This document shows positions 49,046-64,000 of a stretch of 64,000 bases of DNA, one piece after another. The notes below the pieces were generated by a model. The model saw nothing but the letters and a program-made list of their open reading frames with translations. It made no database searches and had not been told where the DNA came from. The number at the start of each line of letters is the position of its first letter. The first letter of the stretch is position 1. A program made the translations under genes and the position numbers. This DNA comes from Hyphomonadaceae bacterium (GTDB lineage: Bacteria > Pseudomonadota > Alphaproteobacteria > Caulobacterales > Hyphomonadaceae): assembly GCA_024742355.1 (NCBI GenBank), contig JANSYM010000009.1, positions 62,001 to 126,000 of the forward strand, written 5' to 3'.

Positions 49046-49975
49046 ATGGAATTTGAACTTGAGTCATTGCCGCAGCCGCGGGGCAAACTGCTGAAAAATG
49101 CGCCGCTTGCGCCCTATACCTGGTTTCGGGTCGGCGGCGCTGCGGATGCGCTGTTCCTGCCCGCGGACGACGCGGACCTGGCGAGCTTTCTGAAGGCTTT
49201 GCCGGAAGATGTTCCGGTGACAGTCCTCGGTGTCGGGTCGAACGTGATTGTTCGTGATGGCGGCATTGAAGGCGTCGTGGTGCGGTTGATGGGCCGCTAT
49301 TGGGGCACGGTGAAACACAATGGCACAGCGGTCAGCGCGCGGGCTGGAGCGCTCGATCTCAATGTCGCCAAGGCAGCGGCCAAGGCGGGCATTAGCGGGC
49401 TCTCTTTCCTGTCCGGCATTCCCGGTTCGATTGGCGGAGCTGTGCGCACCAATGCCGGCTGTTACGGCCACGAATTGAGCGATGTCGTGACCGCTGTCGA
49501 TGGCATTAGCCGCGCCGGCGAGCCGGTGACCTTGCAGCGCAAGGACATCGGGTTTTCGTATCGCCATACCGATTTTGCCAGCAATATCGTTGTCACCCAG
49601 CTGCATCTCGTCGGCAGTGGAACAGGCGATCCCGACACGCTCGCAGAAGAGATCGCAGCGCATCAGGCGCGCCGGGCCGAGACCCAGCCGATCAAGGACA
49701 AGACGGGTGGATCAACCTTTGCCAATCCCGATCCGCCGGGAACCCCGGATGCGCGCTCAAGCTGGAAGCTGATCGACGCGGCGGGGTGCCGAGGCCTGCG
49801 CGTTGGCGGCGCCATGGTCAGCGAGAAGCATTGCAATTTCCTGATCAATACCGGCGAAGCGACGGCCGCCGATATTGAGGCGCTCGGCGAATTGGTGCGT
49901 GCCCGCGTGCTGGATCATTCAGGCGTTGACCTGCGCTGGGAGATTCGCCGCATCGGACGCCTTCAGAACGTCTAG
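49046..49975 (+). CDS. murB: UDP-N-acetylenolpyruvoylglucosamine reductase
   Basis: FAD enzyme that reduces UDP-GlcNAc-enolpyruvate to UDP-MurNAc with NADPH. The 309 residues contain the FAD motif [13 protein letters not shown] near 60, [34 protein letters not shown], and [11 protein letters not shown] with the catalytic Ser, plus [28 protein letters not shown]. Type IIa-like (short) form. It is the last dcw gene here: ddl, ftsQ, ftsA and ftsZ do not follow. Its stop overlaps the convergent receptor gene by CTAG. Confidence 0.97.
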
Positions 49976-52014
49976 AATGTGCCTTTCAGGCGCAACGTGA
50001 CAATACTGCCAAAATTACGAATTCGGTCTTCGACCCGGTCGACCTGACCATTGCGATCGGGCAAATAGACCACGCGCGTGACTTTCGAGTCGGTGTCGAT
50101 CAGATTGCCGAAAAACGCCGAACCAGTCATGCCGAATATGTCCTTGTGTTCGACAAATCCCCAGACAAAGCCCTTGGGCTCGGAGAAATTGACCCGGACG
50201 TCTTGGCGAAATCTCGGCGACTGAGCGAAGTTCTCGTAATTGATGCCCCAGGCCCAGTCCGTGTCCGGCACATCATGGCGAAAATTAACTTCGAAGAAAT
50301 GGATTTGGGAGCCGTTGAAATCTCGGGTTGCGCCGGTTACCGGGTCTTCCAGGAACGTATCCTGAAGGAAGGTCTCATATTCCAACTGCGCGCCTTCCCA
50401 ACCAATATTATCGAGCTTCAGCGTCCCTTCGACCTCAAACGCGACGCGTGAAGCAGAATCGAGATTGCCCGGTCCTTCGCCGTTGCCGATTGGGACCTGA
50501 TCAATGAGATCTTCGATTTCGTCATAAATTATCTCAGCGGTCAGCGCACCCCAGCTTCCAAAGTCCTTTTCCGCCTCGACCGCAAAGCGCCAACGCCGAT
50601 CCGGCACAATGTCATTATTGCCAACATTGTCTTCCCGGTTATTTGGATCGATGTTGGCGATAAAGTCGAAGAAATCGAGTTGACCAACCAGGCGCTCGGC
50701 CGAGGCATTGATCTTCAGATCGTCATCCACGTCCCAGGCGATTGAGGCGCTGCCTTTCGGTCGCGTGAACATGCGCGTCTGCCCTCCGACGCCATCAGAC
50801 GATATTTCTGATTGCTCGGCGCCAAGCGAAACTTGCAGGCGCAATTTCTGGTTCAACTGGCGGCCATGCGTGATGAAGGCTTCAGCGCGCTTTTCCTCGA
50901 CCCGGGTGCCGGGATCGATCACCGTTCGGTTTGGTGCGGCATCGATCGTGGTTCCGGTGAACAGGTCGGATTCATTCTCCAGGGAATTGAACGCGCCTTC
51001 GAGCGAAACCTGCCAATCCGAATTGTTCTTCCCGGCCCAACTGTATTCGCCGCGCAAAATGCTTTCGCTCTCATCCGTGGTGCGCGCGAAGATTTCGTTG
51101 GTGACATTCGTGCCGTCAATATTCGCCTCAAGAAATTGAACGGTGACCGGGCTGTGCTCATTGCGTTGCAAACCGATCAGCTTCAGGCGGCCAGGGCCGA
51201 GGCCGAATTCATAATCGCCGCCAATCTCGCTCTCCCATTCATCCTCATTGAATGTGAACTCCGATTGGCTGACCAAAGTGCCATCCGGAAGAAACTTTGA
51301 GCTGGTTTCGAGTTCGTCGGGTTCTGAAACCCCATATTCGGCGTTCAGATTGGCAATGTGCCCATTGCTCGGCGTCCAGCTGAGGCTGCCATTCAAGCTC
51401 GTGCGTTCGTTCAGGAACCGGCCGGTTTCCTCGCGAAAGTTTGTGAGGTTTCCAGCGCCGTCAAAAATGTTTTCGCGGCCCGCTGCGCCGCCGCGCCCAG
51501 GTTCGGCCTCGAGGCCAAGCGTCCAACCGAGCGATCCGGACTGACCACTCACTGAGATTTCAGCCCAGCGCACGGCGGCCTCCAGGTTTTCGCGATATCT
51601 CTGATGCGCGGACCAGGTCCCGGATATGCCATTGGCTTTGGCGGTGACATTGGCGACCTGGCCGCTCAGGCCTGGAATGTCGAGATTGGCGCCTTCGACA
51701 ATCTCGATCTTCTCGACATTCTCGGCCGGAATACGCGACAGGGCGTCCCGGGCCGTGGTTGATTTCGACGAAATGCGCTGGCCATTGATCAGGACATTCT
51801 CGTCTGCCTGGCCAAATCCGCGTTGCTCTTCATCGCTCTGGGAAATGTTGAAACCTGGAATCTGGGAGACCATGTCGAGCGCCGTGCGCGGCGCAAATTG
51901 CTGAAAGTCAGCTGCCGTAAAAGTACGGGAATCCTCGCCGGGCTGTTCAATGGTCTGTGCGGGTGCAGAGAGGGGAAGACTGACCGCCAGCCCGGCGAGG
52001 AAAGCGCATTTCAT
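49972..52014 (-). CDS. TonB-dependent outer-membrane receptor
   Basis: A 680-residue receptor with a signal peptide ([11 protein letters not shown]). The plug domain begins near [18 protein letters not shown] and includes [13 protein letters not shown] and [24 protein letters not shown]. The barrel follows, ending in TLRLKGTF with C-terminal Phe for BAM. No siderophore genes, sigma factor or adjacent hydrolase reveals the substrate; the type with a bare catecholate-like plug is common for sugars, peptides or lipids. It is convergent with murB. A palindrome at 52057-52068 lies 43 bases before the start and may be its operator. Confidence 0.93.
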
Positions 52015-52433
52015 GTCGTGATACTCCGGTCGAGATACTGTTCTCTTGTCATCGTGTTACATATGTAAACACACGCTGCAACCCCACGGATAGATTTTTT
52101 TTCGACGCGGTATTTTCAGGCAAAAATTTTGGCTGGAGAGGCAAGGTGCGGCGCAAGTCGATCGAAGACTGCGCGAGTTCTGCAAGATGATTCTTCAGGG
52201 CGTGTGCGCCTGCGCTGGACCACAAACTGAGACGGTCAGAGAATGACCAAGCGGATCAACACCTTACTGTGAGTACAGGTCTGCGAACTTCGCCATGCAC
52301 GGAAAACTTTCCCCCGTCGTGGCGGCGTTCGTTTCTTTTTGAGGGGAAGTGGTGTGCTGATCGATAATCGTTTCTGGACTGCCATATTGTGCGTTCGCCG
52401 GATGCATGAAACGACCACGCCAGATCGAATTGG
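52015..52433. other. Divergent region between TonB receptor and type I secretion operon
   Basis: 419 bases without a supported gene; small frames on both strands look non-coding. It must contain both promoters. The receptor side holds the perfect palindrome TTACATATGTAA (52057-52068), and TTTTTTTT occurs at about 52096. Nothing else is recognised. Confidence 0.6.
52057..52068. promoter_or_regulatory. Palindrome before TonB receptor gene
   Basis: TTACATATGTAA is a perfect 12-base palindrome in otherwise GC-rich DNA, flanked by GTG and ACAC to give a near-perfect 19-base symmetry. It lies 43 bases upstream of the receptor start, a typical operator position. The regulator is unknown. Confidence 0.4.
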
Positions 52434-54176
52434 ATGTCGCACGTGACGGTGGCGGCTACCGAGACCGACGTCGCTGAGGCTGCGATGCGCGACCCGGATA
52501 TGCGGGCGCTTAAGACAGGTCTGAGCGCGTTTCTGGTCGTCACGGCGTTCTTCTCGATCTCGGTCAATATTCTGCTGCTGGTGTCGCCGCTTTACATGTT
52601 GCAGGTCTATGACCGTGTTCTCACCTCAGGGTCGATGGAGACGCTGATCCTGATTTCCGTCCTGGCGGGCGGTTTGATGGTGACATACGTGTTCGCAGAA
52701 AGTGCTCGTCGACATGCTTTGGCGCTCGCCGCGCGATTCCTGCACAGACGATTTGGCGAAAAGCTGTTCAACGTGAACTTCGCGGAATCGCGCGCCGATG
52801 GATCGTTACAGAAAGACCTGTCGGACCTGACCGTGGTGCAATCCTTCTTTTCAAACGGGTTGATCCTGCCGGTCTTCGACCTGCCTTTCACGCCCTGTTT
52901 CCTGCTGGTCTTGTACCTGATTCATCCGCTTCTGGGCTGGCTTGGCGTCGCGGGTGCGGGCTTGTTGCTGCTGATCACGATCCTGGCGGAACTTGCGGCG
53001 CGCGAGCCTGAGAAAACCGCGCAATCGGTTGAGCGGGCCTCTCAGGACTTCGCGTCCGGATTGGCTGGACAACAGTCGGCGATTGTCAGCATGGGGATGG
53101 CGCGACAAGCCTTTCAGGGCTGGTCAAGCCGGAAGGCGCTGTCCGACCAGCTCTCGCTCGGGACGGCAAAGTCATCCAATTTTTTTGGGGCGCTGACGCG
53201 TGGCCTGCGCCAGACGCTGCAAATGGGGGCGCTCGGCCTCGGCGGATGGCTGGTCTTGCAGCATGTCGCGACACCAGGTGTCATTATTGCCGGTTCAATC
53301 GTGATGGGACGGGCACTGGCGCCGATTGATCAATGCGTCGGCATGTGGCGACAGATTATCCGTGCACGGAAGTCGTGGAAAAATGTCAGACAGCGCGCGG
53401 CGAACCCGTTGGCCAAACAAGACGAGTATACGCCGATGCCGCGGCCTGATCCCCGACTGGAATTGATCAATCTGGAAGTCGGCCATCCGGGGGCGGAGCA
53501 ACGCGTTTTGCCGCGTTTTAGCCTGACCCTGGAGCGTGGGACTGTACTCGCAATTGTCGGCCCAAGCGGGATCGGAAAATCAACGCTTTTGCAAACTCTG
53601 ACCGGGGTCTGGTCGCCGCTCGATGGTCAAGTCACGCTGGGCGGACGTGATCTGCACGAATGGAATCAAAACGATCGCGGACAGTATGTCGGCTACTTAC
53701 CGCAAGACGTCGAGCTTTTGCCCGGAACGGTGGTCCAGAACATTGCGCGTTTTACGCAGGCCGATAGCGCGCAAGTCATTGCCACCGCAAAAGATTGCGG
53801 GGCGCATGAAATGGTCAGCGCGCTGGCCGACGGCTATGACACGGTGATCGGACCGGGCGGGGCACAGATCTCCGCCGGTCAGAAACAAGCAATCGGGCTT
53901 GCGCGCGCCCTGTTTGGCGCGCCGCCTTTGCTGGCGCTGGATGAGCCGTCCGCAAATCTCGACGAATTCACCATCGCCAAACTCACCCGCACCTTGGCCG
54001 CACAGCGCGCAGCGGGCCATGTGGTTCTGATCGCGACGCATGATGTGCGCATGATCCAGGCCGCGGACCGTGTGCTGCTCTTGAACAAGAATGAAATCAA
54101 ACTGGTCGGCGCGGACGCCTATCGCGCCGCGATCGCCAACAAGTTGCAACCGGCGACGCGGGAGGCGCTGTCATGA
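52434..54176 (+). CDS. Type I secretion ABC transporter (PrtD family)
   Basis: Inner-membrane ATPase of 580 residues that drives one-step export of large RTX or adhesin proteins. The N-terminal half has about five transmembrane helices (YMLQVYDRVLTSGSMETL is the PrtD-type hallmark). The nucleotide-binding half has Walker A GPSGIGKST near 380, signature ISAGQKQAIGLARAL and Walker B LALDEPSANLD. There is no C39 peptidase-like domain. The start ATG lacks a strong ribosome site. The membrane-fusion gene overlaps its stop (ATGA). Likely exports the giant adhesin downstream. Confidence 0.94.
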   Translation: MSHVTVAATETDVAEAAMRDPDMRALKTGLSAFLVVTAFFSISVNILLLVSPLYMLQVYDRVLTSGSMETLILISVLAGGLMVTYVFAESARRHALALAARFLHRRFGEKLFNVNFAESRADGSLQKDLSDLTVVQSFFSNGLILPVFDLPFTPCFLLVLYLIHPLLGWLGVAGAGLLLLITILAELAAREPEKTAQSVERASQDFASGLAGQQSAIVSMGMARQAFQGWSSRKALSDQLSLGTAKSSNFFGALTRGLRQTLQMGALGLGGWLVLQHVATPGVIIAGSIVMGRALAPIDQCVGMWRQIIRARKSWKNVRQRAANPLAKQDEYTPMPRPDPRLELINLEVGHPGAEQRVLPRFSLTLERGTVLAIVGPSGIGKSTLLQTLTGVWSPLDGQVTLGGRDLHEWNQNDRGQYVGYLPQDVELLPGTVVQNIARFTQADSAQVIATAKDCGAHEMVSALADGYDTVIGPGGAQISAGQKQAIGLARALFGAPPLLALDEPSANLDEFTIAKLTRTLAAQRAAGHVVLIATHDVRMIQAADRVLLLNKNEIKLVGADAYRAAIANKLQPATREALS

Positions 54177-55471
54177 AAGCCATGGGGCTGATATTCTCCG
54201 ATCGCCGATTGTCGACATCCTTCCTGGTGTGTGCCGTGTCGCTCGGCGGATTTCTGGCCTGGGCCGGGCTGGCGCCCCTGGCCGAAGGCGTGACCGCTTA
54301 TGGCAGTGTCGTCGTCGAGTCTGATCGCAAGCTTGTTCAGCATCTGGAAGGCGGCATCATCGATCAGATCCTGATCAAGGAAGGGGACATGGTCGAGACC
54401 GGTGACCCGTTGATGGTGCTCACCGATATCGCCGCCTCAGCCGGCCGGGATCAGGTGACCCAGGATCTCGTCAACCACCTTGCATCGATCGATCGTCTCA
54501 CTGCCCTGCTCGCTGGAAACAGCGAGATCGCGTTTACGGAGCTTTCGGATGATGTCGAAATCCGGCCCGAGGACTATGACGAGATCCTCGCCCGGCAGCG
54601 CGATCTGTTTGCGCAACAGAACCGTCGGCTGTCAGCCGATGTGCGGGTGCTCAGAAGTCGCGCGGAGGGCCTGGCCGAGTCGGCGCGAAACCAACAGGCC
54701 CAGATTGAAAGCCAGAAACGATCGGTCGGCATCATCGAGGCCGATCTGGTCAAGAAAGAGTCGCTGCTGGCGGAGAATCTGGTGTCAGGCGATGCGGTTG
54801 TCCAATTGCAACGTGACCTGACCCTGGCCGAAAGCGAATTGTTCCGCCTGAACGCGGCGCAGGAGCAAAACCTGATCGAGGCGCGGGAAGTGCGCAATCA
54901 GATTATCCAGACCGAGGAACGCTTTGCCGAAGACCTGACCCAAGAGCTTCTGGAGGCCCGGGCGAGCGCCGCCGAAGCCGGGGAGCAATTGCGCGCCGCA
55001 CAGGACGTGGTCAACCGGACCACGCTGTTTGCGCCGCGATCCGGCGAGGTGCTCAACCTCAAATACAGCACGCTGGGCGGGGTCGTTCAGCCAGGCGAGG
55101 CCGTCGTCGAAATTGTCCCGCGCGAAGCGCAACTGGTGGCCTCTCTGGAAATCTTCCCGGCCGACCGGGACGGCGTCTATGAAGGCTTGCGCGTGATGAC
55201 TCGACTAAGCGGTTTTGACAGCTGGCGCTCCCCCAGCATGGAGGGGAAGATCATGGATGTCAGTCCGGATCTGAAGAGCGCTCCGAGCGGCGACTATTCC
55301 TATTATGAGGCGCGTGTGGTGCTGGACGTGGACACCCTGGCCGAGAACGGAATCCAGGCGGCGCCCGGCATGCCGGTCGAGGCGTTCGTCCTGTCCGGTC
55401 AGAAGCGCACCCTGCTGAATTATCTGGTTGAACCGATTACCGCCACGTTTCGACGTGGCGCCAAGGAGTGA
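54173..55471 (+). CDS. Type I secretion membrane fusion protein (HlyD/PrtE family)
   Basis: Periplasmic adaptor of 432 residues. One transmembrane helix (FLVCAVSLGGFLAWAGLAPL) follows a short cytoplasmic start. The lipoyl half-motif QHLEGGIIDQILIKEGDMV near 60, a long coiled coil (about 120-270, with RDLFAQQNRRLSADVRVLRSRAEGLAE), and LFAPRSGEVLNLKYST near 285 complete the MFP layout. It bridges the ABC transporter and the TolC-like protein. The start overlaps the upstream gene and the TolC gene follows after 4 bases. Confidence 0.95.
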   Translation: MKAMGLIFSDRRLSTSFLVCAVSLGGFLAWAGLAPLAEGVTAYGSVVVESDRKLVQHLEGGIIDQILIKEGDMVETGDPLMVLTDIAASAGRDQVTQDLVNHLASIDRLTALLAGNSEIAFTELSDDVEIRPEDYDEILARQRDLFAQQNRRLSADVRVLRSRAEGLAESARNQQAQIESQKRSVGIIEADLVKKESLLAENLVSGDAVVQLQRDLTLAESELFRLNAAQEQNLIEAREVRNQIIQTEERFAEDLTQELLEARASAAEAGEQLRAAQDVVNRTTLFAPRSGEVLNLKYSTLGGVVQPGEAVVEIVPREAQLVASLEIFPADRDGVYEGLRVMTRLSGFDSWRSPSMEGKIMDVSPDLKSAPSGDYSYYEARVVLDVDTLAENGIQAAPGMPVEAFVLSGQKRTLLNYLVEPITATFRRGAKE

Positions 55472-55475
55472 TCCT

Positions 55476-56744
55476 ATGAAACTCGCCCGTTTTCTCCCGC
55501 TCGCTTGCCTGCCACTATGGTTCGGCGCCAGCGTCGCTGCGGCGCAGGACTGTCTTTCATTGAACAATGCCCTGGCCCTGAGCCAGCAGCAGGATCCGTC
55601 CATTGGTGCGGCTGGCGCCCAGGTGGTTGGCGCAGAAGCGCGCCTGACCGGTGTGAAATCTGACTGGCGGCCGCAAATTTCGGCCTTTGCCCAGTCCAAT
55701 GATGGACCAACCGGGTTGGGCGATGGGCGCACCAATAATCAGGTCGGGATCAGCGTCTCGCAGAGATTGTATGATTTTGGCCGCGGGCGGCTGGAGCAGG
55801 AGAGTGCAAAGGCCCGTGTCGCCCAGGCAGATTTCCGCCTGGACGGCGTCAGGAATGATGTTGCGACAATGACGGCGGGCACGTTCCTGTCCGTGCTGCG
55901 CGCATCGGAACGGGTCGAAGCTGCGCGTAAGCGACAGGCCTATCTCGCGGACTTGGTAGGGGGCCTCGAAAGCCGGCTTAAGGCGAACGCGATCACGGCG
56001 GCGGAAAAGAATCGGATCGAAGCAGAGTTTGCGCTCGCCGAGTCGGATGTCATCCAGGAAGAGCTGGCGCTCGCGGCGGCGCAATCTGATCTCAGGATCC
56101 TGACCGGAAGCGCCTTGCAGAATTGCGAAATGCTGGCCCAGTTTGACGGGTTCATTGACGCACGGTTGCCCTCGACTTTGCTCGAGATTGTCGACCGCGC
56201 CGTCGCCACGCATCCGGAGATTCTGGCGACCCAGTCAGAGCAAACCGCGCTTCAGGCAGACCTGAGAGTGGCATCGCGCTTCCGGGCGCCAGTGGTCGAG
56301 CTGCAAGGCGTGGCTGCGATCGCCAACGAAGATTTCGATGTGAAAAGCGAGACCGAAACGCGGATTGGCATCAATGTCACGGCGCCGCTGTTCGGGTTTG
56401 GCCGGCACGCCTCGCGCAAGCAGGAGGCGGCGGCCAATCTGCAAGTTGCCAGGCTGAGCATGGATCGATTGCGCCGGGATATCGAACAACAGATCACGCT
56501 GGTCTGGAAACGGGCGGTTGCGTACGAGGCGCTGGCACAGTCGCAAGCCGCCGCGCGCGACAGTCACCGCGCTGAAGCGCATGCGCTATTGCGCGAGTTC
56601 GAAAACGGGTTGCGCCCGTATCAGGACGTGCTGCAGGCCGAGGCGGGTGTGCAGAATGCAATCCTTCAGGAAATCGAGGCCCGATACCTGGAGCGCGAAC
56701 AAAGACTGCGCCTGGTCTCCATGATCAATGCCCTGTCGCGTTAG
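55476..56744 (+). CDS. TolC-family outer-membrane channel of the type I secretion system
   Basis: Outer-membrane efflux protein of 422 residues with a signal peptide (LPLACLPLWFGASVAAAQD). The duplicated TolC-like helical repeats appear as DWRPQISAFAQS and later ASRFRAPVVELQGV, with GISVSQRLYDFGRG and GINVTAPLFGFGRHASR as the paired strand/helix transitions. I chose the ATG at 55476, 7 bases after AAGGAG; the longer frame lies in the fusion-protein gene. Completes the tripartite exporter. Confidence 0.94.
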   Translation: MKLARFLPLACLPLWFGASVAAAQDCLSLNNALALSQQQDPSIGAAGAQVVGAEARLTGVKSDWRPQISAFAQSNDGPTGLGDGRTNNQVGISVSQRLYDFGRGRLEQESAKARVAQADFRLDGVRNDVATMTAGTFLSVLRASERVEAARKRQAYLADLVGGLESRLKANAITAAEKNRIEAEFALAESDVIQEELALAAAQSDLRILTGSALQNCEMLAQFDGFIDARLPSTLLEIVDRAVATHPEILATQSEQTALQADLRVASRFRAPVVELQGVAAIANEDFDVKSETETRIGINVTAPLFGFGRHASRKQEAAANLQVARLSMDRLRRDIEQQITLVWKRAVAYEALAQSQAAARDSHRAEAHALLREFENGLRPYQDVLQAEAGVQNAILQEIEARYLEREQRLRLVSMINALSR

Positions 56745-57128: not shown

Positions 57129-60100
57129 ATGAAAAAGTCTAACAAAACCATCGCTCGCAAATCCCTCGGGCGCGTTGAGATTTCGACCATTGCTGCACTC
57201 GGATTATTGGGGGTCGGCGTTGAGGCGGCTGCGCAAAGCGCGACGGACAATCCGCTCGACAGCATTGACGGCGTCACGGGTTACGAGATCCTGCCGAATG
57301 ACTCGCTGCTGATCACGCTGGAGTCCGGCGAGACACTGACGCTCGCCGCGGATGCTTATGTCATCGTCGGCGAACAGGTCTTCCTGCGCGAAGACGGTGC
57401 AGCAATCCTGCAGGCCGCGCTGGCGGGCGGTGTGGATGCCGCACTGCTGCTCGGTGGAGCGTTTGCGGGCCTGAGCGGTGTGATCGCAGCCACCGATGAT
57501 GGCGGCGATGATGGCGCGACGCCGCCCTCGGACACCACGCCCCCCTCGTTCACGTCGGATGCGACTGCCTCAACTGCAGAGAATGTCAGCACCGACACGG
57601 TGGTCTATGACGCCAATGCGACCGACGCCAACACCATCACCTATTCGCTCTCCGGGGCCGACGCTGATTTCTTCGAAATCGACAGCGATACCGGGGAAGT
57701 GACCTTCATCGACTCGCCGGACTTTGAGGCCGAGGCGGACGCGAACGGCGACAATGTCTTCGAGATTACGATCACCGCCTCGGATGGTACCAATTCATCC
57801 TCGCTTGATGTCGCGATCACGCTCACAGATCTCGACGATGAGGCCCCGGTCATCACCTCTGAGGCCTCGGCCACGGTGGTGGAAAACCCCGCTGACGGGC
57901 AGGTCGTGTACACCGCCACCGCGACCGATGTGGACAGCGAAACCGTCACTTTCAGCCTGGCCGGCGCCGATGCGGACCTGTTCGAGATCGATGCAAGTTC
58001 GGGCGAGGTCAGTTTTGTCGGCTCGCCGGACTATGATGATGCGGGCGATGCGGACGGCGACAATGTCTATGAGATTCAGATCGTCGCCTCGGACGGCACC
58101 AATTCCAGCACCCAGACCGTCGAGATCACGGTGACCGACGTCAATGATGAAGCGCCGGTCTTTACTTCGGCGACCAGCGCGACCGCTGTCCCTGAAGACG
58201 AGACCGACACCATCTATACGGCCAAGGTCTCCGACCTCGATACGGACCTCGACTCGATCACCTATCGCCTCGCCGACAGTGGTGACAGCCAGTATGTCAA
58301 TATCGACCCGGACACCGGCGCGGTGACGCTGGGCAGCCTGATCGATCATGAAAATCCGTTGGATGACGGCAAGGACAATTCCTACACGACCGAGATCATC
58401 GCCTCGGATGGTAGCAATGAAACCACGCACACGGTCACAATCGAGATCGCTGATGTGGCGGATGAGGGTCCGGTGTTCACCTCGGGTGCGACGGCCAGTG
58501 TTGAGGAAGCCAGCACAAACACCAATTACATACCCCACGCAACGCCTGATCTGGCGGGATCGACGGTAACTTACGCAATCACGGGCGGTGCCGATGGGGC
58601 GCTGTTCGAACTGGACGACGATTCAGGCATGTTAACACTGGTGTTCGGGAAAAATCATGAAAGACCGATCGACGCTGCCGACCCGGCCACCGGCGCCATT
58701 GCGGGCGATAATGTCTATGAAGTCGAGATCACCGCCACTGATGAAGATGGCAATCAGACCAGCCGGCTCGTCAATGTTACCGTTACCGACATCACTGAGA
58801 CGGCGCCGAGTTTCACCAGCGGGACGGCGATCAGCGTCGATGAGAATGAGTCCGATACTGGCTACATCGCCAATGCTGTTCCGGACGTGGAAAGCCTGGA
58901 CGTCACCTATGCGCTCACCGGCGGCGCTGATGAGGCGCAGTTCAAGATTGACAGCGAGACCGGCAAGCTGAGTTTTGCCGACGGGTTCACACCGGATTAT
59001 GAAAGCCCCGGCGACGGCGGTGGATCGTCTGCGGTCGACAATGTCTATGAAGTTGAAATCACCGCGACAGACGAGGATGGCGCCAAGTCGACCCAGCTCG
59101 TGCACGTCACGGTGAATGATGTCGACGACGAAGCACCGGTCTTCACCTCAAGCACCAATCCGTCAGCTGTCCCGGAAGACGAGACGGACGTGGTCTATGT
59201 TGCCGAAGCCACAGATCCGGACAGCGACGATGGCGATATCACCTATGCGCTCGCGGATGGCGGCGACAATCAGTTCTTCAACATCGATGCGGATACCGGC
59301 CAGGTCACCCTGCGCGCGACCATCGATCATGACACCGCCAATGATGCCGATGGCGATCACGTCTATGACATCCAGATCATCGCATCGGACGGCACCAATT
59401 CGTCGACGCATGATGTCGCGATCACCATCACCGATGCGGCTGACGAGGACCCGGTTTTCACAACCGGCACGACGGCCAGTGTCGATGAAGGCAAGACAAT
59501 TACCGACTATATGCCTGAGGCGATCCCGGACGTGGATGGCACGCCGGTCACTTACAAGATTGTCGGCGGCGCGCACGGCCACCTGTTCGACATCGACGAT
59601 ACGACGGGCAAACTGGTGTTCAAAGACACGCCGGATTTTGAAGCCCCGTTTGAAGGATATGCGACGACGCACAACGCGTATTATGTGATTGGTGACACGG
59701 GCCCGGACTTTCTGGATTTCGAGGGCGGGCTGATCGAAGACGAAGATGGCGATGGATATCTTGACCCCGGCGAAGCCGTCACCATCACGTCGGCCCGGGG
59801 AACGATTACGTCTCATTCTTTTGTCGGTACGGTGGAGATTGACGGGCATACGTTTGTCGCAACGACCTCAGGTGCGTCCGGAAATCCCGCAGACGGTGAA
59901 GAACTGATCTTCTGGGTGCCGTTCGGTGTCGATCCGGACACGATCAATTTTCCGGACGTTGATGATCTGAGAGCGCTGCTAAACTCCGACGCCTTCTCGG
60001 ATGAAGCCTTTTCAATCCGGCCCGACAATCAATACGAAGTCACCATCGAGGCCTCTGACGACACTAATACGAGCACGCAGACGGTCACCGTCACGGTCAA

Positions 60101-63100
60101 TGATGTCGATGAAGACGCACCGGTCTTTTCCAATACGGAGACTGATGTCAGCGTCGCCGAGAATACCGATTCCAGCACGGTTGTGTTCAACGCCAATGCG
60201 ACCGATCCAAACGGACCGGACGCTGATATCAAATATTCGCTCTCCGGCGACGATGCGGACGCGTTCGACATTAACGAGGACACCGGCGTGGTCACGTTCA
60301 AGGACACGCTTCCCGCGCCGGATCATGAAGCCCCCGCCGATGCGGATCAGAATGGTGAGTACAAGATCACCATCACCGCGACCGACAGCGAGAACAAGTC
60401 CACCGACCTCGCCGTCACCATCACGATTGATGATGTCAGCGAAACGGGCCCCGCATTCACCTCTGCGACCACCGTCAGCGTCAACGAGAACGAGACCGAA
60501 ACCGGCTACACGCCGCAGGCGACGCCGGACGTGGATGGTGCCGATGTCAAATACAAGGTTTTCGGCGGCGCGCACGGTCACCTGTTCGATATTGATCCGA
60601 ACACCGGCGAACTGGTGTTCATAAACGCGCCGGATCACGAGGCGTTTACCGTCGGGGTTCGGTCACACGGTTTCTTCGTCATCTCTAGCGCAGATGGCTC
60701 TGCATCGTCTTTCCAACCATATCCGGAGCTAATTTCTGAGGGGCGCTGGACTACGATCGGCGTCGATGATGGTTGGTTGGAGCCGGGCGAGGGTATGTCA
60801 TTTAACGGTCACGATTACGGCGATACTTATGCCGGAACGGTGACGATTGCCGGCGTGACGCTCATTGTTTCCAACGATGATATCGGGGGATATAACGTGT
60901 ATGTCCCCGCAGGCATTGATCCAGACTCGATCACTTTCCCGGACGATTTCTCCGAACTGACCCTCTCAACCGACCCGTACCAGCTTCCGGTGAGCAATGA
61001 GTTTGAGGTCACCATCCAGGCCTTTGACGGCACCAATACCAGCACGCATACGGTCTACGTTACCGTCAATGATGTCAGTGATAACGCCCCGACCTTCGCC
61101 TCAGACTTCGCGGTGGGTAGCGTGGATGAAAACGAGACCGCGACCGACTATACAGCGACCGCGACGCCGGATGTCGACGGTGCAGAGGTGACCTATTCGA
61201 TTGTTAGCGGCGCGCATCGGCACTTGTTCGACATTAATGAGACCACCGGCGAGGTGTCTTTCAAGACCGCCCCGGACCACGAAGCGCCCACCCATGCCTG
61301 GCGCGCAGGGACGTATGCGTTCTGGTCAAACGGTGACATCGCCGGAACCCCCGATTTTGCGGGGAGCTATACCGAATCGCTCCTCATCACAGAATCCGTA
61401 TTCGTAAATGACGAAGACTGGGACGGTGTGCTCGAGGTCGGTGACGTGATCTTCATTGGTGGTGGCAATTCCGAATATGAGTTTTACGGCACCCTGGAGA
61501 ATAACGGTCATACGCTGATCGTGGCGCGCAAGCAGACAGCGAATGGTGCGGAATTCGTCATTTACGGGCCTGAAGGGTCAAACCCCGGCGACCTGTCGGG
61601 CCTGTTCCTCAATGACGTGGACCAGAGCCCGTTCAGCCTCAGCACGACCAATGAATACCAGATTGTCGTCAAGGCCGAAGAAGGGAACAAGGCGAGCTAC
61701 CAGACGGTCACCATCTCCGTCGAAGACACGGCTGAGGACGGCCCTGTCTTCACAGAGACCACGGTCAGCGTGAATGAGGGCGAGCAGGAGACCGGCTACA
61801 CCCCCGTCGCAACGCCAGATCTCTATGGGTCTACGGTGACCTACAAAATTACCGGCGGCGCCGATGCGGCGCGGTTCACGTTTGATAGTGCTGGGCAGCT
61901 GGTCTTCGTCGACACGTTTACCCCGGATCACGAAAATCCAGGCGATGCGCCAGCGGCCGGCGAAACCGAGGGCAACAATGTCTATGAAGTCGAACTCACC
62001 GCCCGGGATGAGGATGGCAACGAGACGACCCAGACCGTGCTGGTCACGGTCAATGACACACCCGACGAAGACCCCGTATTCACCTCTGAACCGACGGTCA
62101 GTGTCGATGAAAACAAGGTGGGCGTGTTCCACACTGTCGAAGCTATCCCGGATGTGCCCGGGACCCAGGTCAAATACGACCTGAACGGGCCGCATCAGGA
62201 CCTGTTCCAGCTGGGTGAGGAATCAGGCGAATTGCAGTTCGTAACCCCGCCGGATTACGAAAACCGACCGCTTGAGTACATCGCGCTAGCATTTGCGAGA
62301 TACAATGCAAATGGCGGAGATCTGCCTATCGCTGGCGACGAAAACCCGGCCGCGATCGCCGAGGATCCTAGCGCGCCGTCCGCGAACGGTATCCTAACCC
62401 CCGGCGAAAGTGTTCTGGTCGACGGTTCTGCTGGATTTACCTATGTCGGGACCGTGAACATTGACGGTCATACGATGATTGTCACGCGCCTGGAAATCGA
62501 TGGTTCGCTTTTCATCTGGTCGCCGACCGGTGTCGAAGTTGACCCTGACATATTCCCGGAAACGTTCTCCCTGCTGGACGTCACGCAAGAGGATTACCAG
62601 CTCGAGCCAATCGATGCCTATTACGTGACCATTGAGGCCGAGGACGGCTATGAGTCGAGCGCGCAAGAGCTCGTTATCACGCTCAATAACACCGCCGATG
62701 AGGGCCCGACTTTCAACTCGGGCACGACAGCCAACCTGGATGAGAATGAGACCGAAACCGGCTACACCCCGGCGGCCGATCCGGACGTGGCAGGATCGGA
62801 GGTGACCTATGAAATCACCGGCGGCGCGGACGAGGCGCTGTTCGATCTCGATGCAGATGGCCAGCTGGTCTTCGTCAGCGCTCCGGATCACGAGACGCCG
62901 GGCGATGTGGCCGGCAGCACTGGTGCCCGCGACAATGTCTATGAGGTCGAAATCACCGCCACGGATGAGGATGGCAATGAGACGGTCCAGACCATAGAAG
63001 TGACGGTCAATGACATCGCCGACGAGGATCCGGACTTCTCCTCCGACGCGACTGTCTCGGTTTCTGAAGGCGAGACCGAGACCGGCTACACCGCCGATGC

Positions 63101-64000
63101 GACCCCGGATATTCCTGGCGCGCCGATCACCTATGCGATCACGGGCGGCGCGGATATCGGCTTGTTCGACATCAATGCGAGCACGGGCAAGGTGACCTTC
63201 CTGAATCCCCCCGTTTTCGACGCGAATGATGCCAGCAACAACACTTATGAAATCATCGTCACCGCGACGGAAAAGAACGGCGAATCCGCCACTCAGACCG
63301 TCAGTATCACGGTGACCGAGGATCCGGGCGTCGACCTCGGCGACCTGGCCACAACTGCCGGCGTGACGCTGCTGGGCGATGCGGACAATGCATTGGCGGG
63401 TCGGTCCGTCTCGAATGCAGGCGATGTGAACGGCGATGGCATCGATGATGTGATCATCGGCGCGCCCGAACAATCAGTGCCGGGCGACGGCAATGATCGG
63501 CCCGGTATGGCGTATGTGGTCTATGGCGGGCAGGATCTGGAGCAGATCGATCTCGACAACCTGTCCCCGGATCAAGGTTTCATCGTTCAGGGCGAGACGC
63601 AAGGTGATTATCTGGGCATTTCGGTTGCAGCCGCTGGCGATGTGAATGGCGACGGCTATGATGATGTCATCATTGGCGCGACAGGCGCGAACTTTGGAGA
63701 CGGTGCGGCCTATATTATCTATGGCGGACCGACCCTCAGTTCGGACAATCTGATCGACGTTGCGACCATGACCGCGAGCCAGGGCGTAACACTCGATGGC
63801 GCCATTTTCAAAAGCGAGCTTGGTTTTTCCGTGTCCTCGGCCGGCGATGTGAACGGCGACGGCATTGATGATCTCATTATCGGAACGACCTCAGGAGATC
63901 AGACTTATGTCATCTATGGCGGGCAGGACTTCGCTACGATCGATTTGGGGGCGTTGACGTCCGATCAAGGCTTCGAGATCGCGGGTGACTCCGTCTATTC
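57129..64000 (+). CDS. Giant type I-secreted adhesin with cadherin-like and FG-GAP repeats, 3' end beyond window
   Basis: Open frame of at least 2290 residues with no stop before the edge. Residues 1-45 have a hydrophobic segment (ISTIAALGLLGVGVEAAAQ) that may be a signal or membrane element. Residues 45-135 (VTGYEILPNDSLLITLESGET and onward) resemble the N-terminal prefix of BapA/LapA-type adhesins. Residues 138-2063 form fourteen cadherin-like repeats, each ending in VTVNDVxDEAPVF-like linkers with calcium motifs. After 2075, FG-GAP propeller blades start (DVNGDGIDDVIIG). Four cadherin repeats are interrupted by a related domain. The protein is very acidic. The adjacent PrtD/HlyD/TolC genes are its likely exporter. 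A C-terminal secretion signal must lie beyond the window. Confidence 0.92.
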   Translation, partial: MKKSNKTIARKSLGRVEISTIAALGLLGVGVEAAAQSATDNPLDSIDGVTGYEILPNDSLLITLESGETLTLAADAYVIVGEQVFLREDGAAILQAALAGGVDAALLLGGAFAGLSGVIAATDDGGDDGATPPSDTTPPSFTSDATASTAENVSTDTVVYDANATDANTITYSLSGADADFFEIDSDTGEVTFIDSPDFEAEADANGDNVFEITITASDGTNSSSLDVAITLTDLDDEAPVITSEASATVVENPADGQVVYTATATDVDSETVTFSLAGADADLFEIDASSGEVSFVGSPDYDDAGDADGDNVYEIQIVASDGTNSSTQTVEITVTDVNDEAPVFTSATSATAVPEDETDTIYTAKVSDLDTDLDSITYRLADSGDSQYVNIDPDTGAVTLGSLIDHENPLDDGKDNSYTTEIIASDGSNETTHTVTIEIADVADEGPVFTSGATASVEEASTNTNYIPHATPDLAGSTVTYAITGGADGALFELDDDSGMLTLVFGKNHERPIDAADPATGAIAGDNVYEVEITATDEDGNQTSRLVNVTVTDITETAPSFTSGTAISVDENESDTGYIANAVPDVESLDVTYALTGGADEAQFKIDSETGKLSFADGFTPDYESPGDGGGSSAVDNVYEVEITATDEDGAKSTQLVHVTVNDVDDEAPVFTSSTNPSAVPEDETDVVYVAEATDPDSDDGDITYALADGGDNQFFNIDADTGQVTLRATIDHDTANDADGDHVYDIQIIASDGTNSSTHDVAITITDAADEDPVFTTGTTASVDEGKTITDYMPEAIPDVDGTPVTYKIVGGAHGHLFDIDDTTGKLVFKDTPDFEAPFEGYATTHNAYYVIGDTGPDFLDFEGGLIEDEDGDGYLDPGEAVTITSARGTITSHSFVGTVEIDGHTFVATTSGASGNPADGEELIFWVPFGVDPDTINFPDVDDLRALLNSDAFSDEAFSIRPDNQYEVTIEASDDTNTSTQTVTVTVNDVDEDAPVFSNTETDVSVAENTDSSTVVFNANATDPNGPDADIKYSLSGDDADAFDINEDTGVVTFKDTLPAPDHEAPADADQNGEYKITITATDSENKSTDLAVTITIDDVSETGPAFTSATTVSVNENETETGYTPQATPDVDGADVKYKVFGGAHGHLFDIDPNTGELVFINAPDHEAFTVGVRSHGFFVISSADGSASSFQPYPELISEGRWTTIGVDDGWLEPGEGMSFNGHDYGDTYAGTVTIAGVTLIVSNDDIGGYNVYVPAGIDPDSITFPDDFSELTLSTDPYQLPVSNEFEVTIQAFDGTNTSTHTVYVTVNDVSDNAPTFASDFAVGSVDENETATDYTATATPDVDGAEVTYSIVSGAHRHLFDINETTGEVSFKTAPDHEAPTHAWRAGTYAFWSNGDIAGTPDFAGSYTESLLITESVFVNDEDWDGVLEVGDVIFIGGGNSEYEFYGTLENNGHTLIVARKQTANGAEFVIYGPEGSNPGDLSGLFLNDVDQSPFSLSTTNEYQIVVKAEEGNKASYQTVTISVEDTAEDGPVFTETTVSVNEGEQETGYTPVATPDLYGSTVTYKITGGADAARFTFDSAGQLVFVDTFTPDHENPGDAPAAGETEGNNVYEVELTARDEDGNETTQTVLVTVNDTPDEDPVFTSEPTVSVDENKVGVFHTVEAIPDVPGTQVKYDLNGPHQDLFQLGEESGELQFVTPPDYENRPLEYIALAFARYNANGGDLPIAGDENPAAIAEDPSAPSANGILTPGESVLVDGSAGFTYVGTVNIDGHTMIVTRLEIDGSLFIWSPTGVEVDPDIFPETFSLLDVTQEDYQLEPIDAYYVTIEAEDGYESSAQELVITLNNTADEGPTFNSGTTANLDENETETGYTPAADPDVAGSEVTYEITGGADEALFDLDADGQLVFVSAPDHETPGDVAGSTGARDNVYEVEITATDEDGNETVQTIEVTVNDIADEDPDFSSDATVSVSEGETETGYTADATPDIPGAPITYAITGGADIGLFDINASTGKVTFLNPPVFDANDASNNTYEIIVTATEKNGESATQTVSITVTEDPGVDLGDLATTAGVTLLGDADNALAGRSVSNAGDVNGDGIDDVIIGAPEQSVPGDGNDRPGMAYVVYGGQDLEQIDLDNLSPDQGFIVQGETQGDYLGISVAAAGDVNGDGYDDVIIGATGANFGDGAAYIIYGGPTLSSDNLIDVATMTASQGVTLDGAIFKSELGFSVSSAGDVNGDGIDDLIIGTTSGDQTYVIYGGQDFATIDLGALTSDQGFEIAGDSVY
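59649..60020 (+). other. Inserted domain in cadherin repeat 7
   Basis: About 125 residues between the PDFEAP turn and the QYEVTIEASD strand. It contains DEDGDGYLDPGE (calcium-loop like), FVGTVEIDGHTF, and FWVPFGVDPDTINFPD. It replaces the short ADxDGDN loop found in ordinary repeats. Confidence 0.65.
60645..60995 (+). other. Inserted domain in cadherin repeat 9
   Basis: About 117 residues after PDHEA and before NEFEVTIQAFD. Shared core: DGWLEPGE, YAGTVTIAGVTLIV, VYVPAGIDPDSITFPDDFSEL and STDPYQL. It is clearly related to the insert in repeat 7. Confidence 0.65.
61290..61649 (+). other. Inserted domain in cadherin repeat 10
   Basis: About 120 residues after PDHEAP and before NEYQIVVKAEE. Shared core: NDEDWDGVLEVGD, FYGTLENNGHTLIV and VIYGPEGSNPGDL. 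More divergent than the others in its second half. Confidence 0.6.
62271..62615 (+). other. Inserted domain in cadherin repeat 12
   Basis: About 115 residues after PDYENRP and before AYYVTIEAEDG. Shared core: NGILTPGESVLV, YVGTVNIDGHTMIV, LFIWSPTGVEVDPDIFPETFS and DYQLEP. Same insertion point as in repeats 7, 9 and 10. Confidence 0.65.
63354..64000 (+). repeat. FG-GAP (integrin beta-propeller-like) repeats at adhesin 3' side
   Basis: Three blades are visible, each with the calcium loop DVNGDGxDDxIIG (starting near 63426, 63639 and 63849) followed by AYVVYGG or equivalent. The third is followed by a new blade at the edge. This domain probably gives a compact adhesive or calcium-binding propeller beyond the cadherin stalk. 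Confidence 0.88.

Follow-up and report, generated by a model that had tools for sequence, protein, structure and literature searches.

A domain nested in split cadherin repeats of a giant, probably type I-secreted adhesin and its kinship with the N-terminal domains of Hint proteins

The 64,000-nucleotide stretch of DNA analyzed here (hereafter the window; positions 62,001 to 126,000 of contig JANSYM010000009.1, assembly GCA_024742355.1, from a Hyphomonadaceae bacterium) encodes part of a giant adhesin, several of whose cadherin-like repeats are interrupted by related segments. What are these segments, where else do they occur, and what might they contribute to the protein? Our analysis points to an adhesin of the type I secretion system (T1SS) with five split cadherin repeats, each of which carries a side domain of a family linked to Hint proteins. 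That this domain projects sideways and recognizes a ligand is, on sequence, structural models and analogy with known adhesins, an explanation that we consider probable, albeit with reserve.

Nesting of the inserts in cadherin repeats

The open reading frame (ORF) of the adhesin begins at window position 57129 on the forward strand, on which the adhesin features and T1SS genes given below also lie, and exits at the window end; the part within the window (57129–63998, delineated by the ORF and its Pfam matches) specifies 2290 of 3631 residues. The contig continues, and the complete gene lies at C2:119129-130024 of the organism's own genome (G000). The window part comprises an N-terminal leader region, cadherin repeats 1–14 and the onset of an FG-GAP region, with Pfam matches to Cadherin (E = 6e-73, 10 stretches) and FG-GAP (E = 6e-12). 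Beyond the window follow the remainder of the FG-GAP region, a short RTX-like stretch, repeats 15–21 and a C-terminus ending in LQLDMSDALDGF. By a count of the linker motif, the whole gene thus specifies 21 repeats, 14 before the FG-GAP region and seven after the RTX-like stretch.

The four inserts in the window share one position, between the PDxEx and NxYEVxIxA-like strands of repeats 7 (59649–60026; residues 841–966, 126 residues), 9 (60648–60995; residues 1174–1289, 116 residues), 10 (61290–61649; residues 1388–1507, 120 residues) and 12 (62268–62612; residues 1714–1828, 115 residues). A search of the organism's own genome with insert 7 recovers one further copy within the protein, the fifth, in repeat 21 near the C-terminus and beyond the window (residues 3416–3530), and no copy outside the adhesin at E = 1. 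The initial annotation, which had spoken of four of fourteen repeats, is hence accurate for the window part, while the figure for the whole gene is five of 21. Against a Pfam Cadherin cut-off of 28.8 bits, split repeat 7 (59442–60101) scores 25.2 bits intact and 40.9 with the insert removed, repeat 10 (61080–61724) 26.3 and 40.8, and repeat 12 (62064–62687) 18.8 and 31.4; together with repeat 9 (60441–61070), all four repeats tested fall below the cut-off intact and above it once excised. Because the Cadherin model passes only after excision, the inserts are nested domains rather than divergent cadherin repeats in tandem, the alternative that the initial annotation had set against its own proposal of one domain at one structural position. 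That proposal stands for repeats 7, 9, 10 and 12 on both the coordinates and the excision scores. No Pfam Cadherin match was found inside any of the eight inserts collected in this study (scan up to E = 10).

The length of the loop that accommodates the inserts is not constant in the uninserted repeats 4, 5, 11 and 13 either (window 57531 onward), as if it were a tolerant site of this type of cadherin. The short ADxDGDN loop, earlier ascribed to the uninserted repeats 8, 11, 13 and 14, is seen in repeats 1, 2 and 6 and in approximate form in repeats 8 and 14; the corresponding loops of repeats 11 and 13 are longer.

An AlphaFold2 model of repeat 9 with its insert (m6651db894dda; pTM 0.64) shows the same arrangement: host strands at model residues 11–60 and 187–209 bracket the insert strands at 70–156, and a complete cadherin domain aligns over both flanks (91 residues). 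The chain exits the sandwich after five β strands, behind the PDxE motif, and the last two strands follow the insert. Modeled alone, insert 9 is a β domain of about 115 residues (pLDDT 76.6, pTM 0.74). The predicted structure is thus an immunoglobulin (Ig)-like β-sandwich interrupted by a complete, foldable domain. A structural search with the model of the insert alone gave no significant match; a known carbohydrate-binding (lectin) or PA14 fold was among the candidates considered.

The segments were earlier held to be related to one another, and pairwise BLASTP bears this out beyond shuffled decoys. Within the adhesin, nine of the ten insert pairs match at E-values from 1e-9 to 1e-2, the exception being inserts 9 and 10 (E = 2.3, not significant); these E-values apply to a small database, and the best of 77 matches to 1600 shuffled decoys reached E = 0.05. 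In the set of eight inserts (five from the adhesin, two from the genome G008 and one from G024, see below) the best pair is that of the two G008 copies (E = 1.5e-16), and their alignment has five invariant columns (G, L, G, G, G), namely a GxLxxG motif and two later glycines, amid otherwise variable sequence. The inserts are acidic and free of cysteine, with 16–26 Asp and Glu and 1–5 Lys and Arg per copy. Two of them contain a loop, read from the sequence, that may bind Ca2+: DEDGDGYLDPGE in insert 7 (59739–59774) and DEDWDGVLEVGD in insert 10 (61410–61445) fit the EF-hand pattern DxDxDGxLxxGE/D; inserts 9, 12 and 21 match this pattern incompletely.

Several related copies per molecule, a cadherin stalk, and acidic, cysteine-free β domains are what one would expect if the inserts mediated homophilic or interchain contacts, cross-linking adhesin molecules for cell-cell aggregation or fiber bundling. 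However, identity among the copies within the protein is 18–34%, and self-pairing repeats are, as a general expectation, typically more alike; hence, we consider this improbable and favor the binding of a separate ligand.

Kinship with the N-terminal domains of Hint proteins

Searches with the inserts against Pfam, NCBIfam and PHROGs gave no match better than E = 0.16, so that the earlier statement that no named domain is recognizable holds for Pfam and NCBIfam. None of the titles and beginnings of abstracts returned by our literature searches, whose scope excluded most subscription papers, names this domain. Of 105 genomes of the family, four have cadherin-borne relatives, and these four belong to one genus; in one of them (G028) just a C-terminal piece is found (E = 2.9e-5). 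In a sample of the class, profile A2 retrieved the organism's own genome alone (1 of 385). In the order sample, eight of 398 genomes match at E = 0.05, with strong matches in the own genome, G008 and G024 and five others at E = 0.01–0.044, and in the phylum sample 12 of 398 do so at the same threshold, better than 1e-3 only in G000 and the alphaproteobacterial genome G1068. No match emerged from tblastn of plasmids with insert 12 and with the N-terminal domain of a Hint protein (L054), nor any relative from scans of genome contigs and viral contigs with profile A3. The expectation that the segments would be found in other T1SS adhesins was therefore not borne out: in the samples searched, adhesin relatives are confined to the same genus. 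One of these genomes, G008, encodes at another locus a second protein with cadherin and FG-GAP-like regions (1993 residues; C67, L038:7003-12981), which has two adjacent inserts right before its FG-GAP-like region; inspection by eye of the genes beside it recognized no T1SS genes.

The G1068 matches lead to a different kind of protein, to which the initial annotation had drawn no link. A profile built from inserts only (A5) finds three places in this genome (E = 1.5e-7, 0.0075 and 0.018) in ORFs of 293, 300 and 360 residues, each directly before a Hint_2 domain (PF13403), the best match spanning positions 4–115 of the 121-position model. This domain order is shared by a G1061 protein (E = 0.0035), and one of the other weak rows of the phylum sample, L066 (E = 0.035), also proved to be a Hint protein; L059 and L060 were unrelated on inspection, and a motif scan of 58 loci detected no Hint start in L056–L064. 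The four Hint proteins that were scanned have no Pfam or NCBIfam model over this N-terminal domain. It ends directly before the start cysteine of the Hint domain, and the inserts share its core and its end point.

A profile–profile comparison of the inserts with 12 such N-terminal domains, selected by visual inspection of 46 extracted N-terminal regions and including four found by the insert profile, gave a probability of 96.1 and E = 2.9e-9; with the eight domains not picked by A5 the values are 74.8 and 2.6e-5. When the insert profile was run against the 46 regions and 2300 shuffles, the top 12 comprised 10 real and two shuffled sequences, with three real regions scoring above every shuffle. 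In the reverse direction, a Hint-only profile (A6) matches inserts 7 (residues 868–918, independent E-value (i-E) 1.1e-5), 9 (1213–1283, 6.2e-6), 10 (1401–1482, 1.6e-5) and 12 (1753–1822, 3.6e-5) and the two G008 inserts (2.3e-6 and 1.6e-5); the fifth insert, in repeat 21, is not significant (1.9). All other rows have i-E of at least 49, and the best of 400 shuffled proteins reached 1.1. A stricter Hint profile (A7) still matches the G008 inserts (2.3e-4 and 1.2e-3) and lists nothing in the adhesin.

A mixed profile of 17 rows (A8) finds the domain in five of 120 genomes of G1068's family, G1068 included. Each of the 11 places in G1068 lies directly before a Hint_2 match, its end no more than 46 bases away; eight of these places had been rows of A8 and three are new. 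Five of five proteins read from the other A8 genomes have a Hint-like start (CFxxGT) behind the domain, and five extracted regions (four distinct, with L130 left out) take ranks 1–5 of 1505 against the insert-only profile. In a class sample of 240 genomes, A8 matched two, the organism's own and one other whose match we attribute to chance. Since our confidence rests on the insert-only and Hint-only profiles, the overlap of A8 rows with its matches leaves it unchanged. Taken together, the profiles show in both directions that the inserts are related to the N-terminal domain of these short Hint proteins of other Proteobacteria, in an as yet undefined family.

G1068 has 41 Hint_2 matches, 11 of them with this head and many in arrays (contigs C21, C25, C26, C28 and C31). 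Six plasmid regions, from the 30 listed of 182 matched records, gave no significant A5 match (best i-E 0.17), and one of the six, from a Pseudoroseomonas plasmid, has an A8 match (i-E 0.003). As most of these regions have no profile match, this N-terminal domain is one of several segments that precede Hint domains.

We also considered the adhesin itself as a Hint protein and rejected this: it has no Hint_2 match and not one cysteine among its 3631 residues. Hint domains cleave at their start point. A domain common to Hint proteins and ending directly before that start cysteine could conceivably be a processing substrate, recognized by an enzyme in trans as the part that a Hint domain would cleave or modify. 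Nevertheless, no Hint_2 match at E = 1e-5 is found in the four genomes of the genus that were searched (G000, G008, G024 and G028), the organism's own included, the adhesin is free of cysteine, and each insert runs into a cadherin strand rather than a Hint start. We therefore regard a role in processing as very improbable and return to the inserts as binding domains.

Divergence, origin and genomic setting

The inserts differ more from one another than their hosts do, identity being lower in 27 of 28 pairs (means 27% versus 45%; the pairs are not independent). Eight Hint proteins of G1068 show a parallel pattern: identity averages 23% (15–76) in the N-terminal domain and 76% (71–82) in the Hint domain, and is lower in the former in 27 of 28 pairs, again not independent.

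The initial annotation proposed that a split unit had been duplicated. In a phylogeny of 29 host repeats from which the inserts had been excised, those that bear inserts cluster (three changes against a shuffled mean of 7.2, with one of 500 shuffles as low); repeat 7 pairs with 9, and repeat 10 groups with 21 and the G024 repeat. A single origin of the insert-bearing repeats is neither rejected (p-AU 0.257) nor shown, since repeat 12 and both G008 hosts fall outside the group of the others. With eight rows each, the insert and host trees have little resolution, and the one grouping common to both is that of repeat 21 with the G024 repeat. Duplication of a split unit is thus favored by the sequences but not proven.

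In G024 (L039) and G028 (L040) only the start of the ABC transporter gene is retained, followed by the C-terminal end of the adhesin. Compared with the window from 52434 to the adhesin end, their DNA matches end at 52910 and 53064, respectively; by this evidence one and the same locus was reduced to a remnant in both genomes, by deletions that differ in their end points. An assembly artefact is unlikely for G028 because it is a single-contig genome.

That two relatives have lost almost all of the adhesin, which is hence dispensable there, could be held to favor another view, as could the high divergence of the inserts (mean identity 27%) and the length variation of the same loop in uninserted repeats: the inserts would be spacers or decorations, a foldable domain in a tolerant loop that spread with its host by unequal recombination and drifts while binding nothing. 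Against this, the five invariant columns persist in eight of eight copies while the rest varies, and the domain family is retained before Hint domains elsewhere. On balance we find the spacer view unlikely and prefer a binding domain.

Directly upstream of the adhesin gene are, in order, genes for a PrtD-type T1SS permease/ATPase of the ABC transporter class (52434–54176; TIGR01842, 510.4 bits, cut-off 510.15), an HlyD-type periplasmic adaptor (54173–55471; TIGR01843, 310.4 bits, cut-off 208.65) and a TolC-like outer membrane channel whose start is uncertain (55428–56744; TIGR01844, E = 4.9e-44, 151 bits, under the cut-off of 225.15). Because these T1SS genes adjoin it, the adhesin is most likely exported by type I secretion. 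The T1SS–adhesin block and a gene for a TonB-type receptor are embedded in a cell-division gene cluster (window 49046–56744; L007 4322–8933), whose members are, by their sequences, probably murB upstream and ftsQ, ftsA, ftsZ and lpxC downstream. In L112 and G008, the TonB-type receptor gene lies directly against ftsQ, with the adhesin absent between them. The FtsQ encoded downstream of the adhesin shares 92% and 88% identity with those of two metagenome-assembled genomes assigned to Henriciella, a member of the Hyphomonadaceae, so that on this one gene the genus is probably Henriciella.

Proposed role and comparison with known systems

We propose that the cadherin repeats would serve as a Ca2+-stiffened carrier from which the side domain projects sideways, binding a glycan, a protein or the surface of another cell, with the variable side domain providing specificity. 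A projecting side domain, as suggested in the initial annotation, would agree with the arrangement published for split domains. Several divergent copies per stalk would allow multivalent or multi-target binding, and calcium may couple stalk and side domain. The data further suggest a variable recognition module common to two very different carriers, one of which is this giant protein on the surface of a marine bacterium. Because both the inserts and the Hint N-terminal domains diverge more than their hosts and Hint parts, one may go further and envisage a hypervariable alphaproteobacterial extracellular recognition head on two unrelated carriers, self-processing Hint proteins and calcium-stiffened cadherin stalks, with a conserved carrier and a diversified head in both; on the stalk, the head would sit in a loop beside the inter-repeat calcium sites. 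This broader picture we advance tentatively, as possible rather than probable.

The kinship ties an unnamed adhesin domain to the unnamed front part of Hint proteins, so that work on either informs both. A cadherin repeat, moreover, can serve as a split carrier through a loop other than that of the published case, and the split repeat of about 210 residues is a compact unit for expression and ligand screening.

Split-domain T1SS adhesins, in which an Ig-like stalk domain among tandem β-sandwich repeats is interrupted by a whole domain, are described in two reports (PMC12077191, PMC10865825), and in the second split domain of AhLap the chain exits after the first strand (PMC12077191). The adhesin studied here resembles these RTX adhesins in having an Ig-like β-sandwich broken by a complete domain. 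In contrast to AhLap, its carrier is a cadherin repeat, which the chain leaves after five strands and not after the first. In our searches the payload matched no known binding domain, and the protein has five related split units; moreover, ligand binding is proven for some of the known cases, whereas here it is suggested by analogy with them. With Hint_2 (PF13403) proteins the payload shares its core and end point, at the profile–profile significance given above, but in those proteins it immediately precedes the start cysteine of the Hint domain, whereas here it lies inside a cadherin repeat. Compared with the Cadherin (PF00028) repeats found in T1SS and biofilm adhesins of bacteria, five repeats of this protein are nested and the other 16 are not. 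While split domains as such are known, what appears to be new is the cadherin repeat as split carrier, its five-fold use in one protein, and a payload that elsewhere partners Hint domains.

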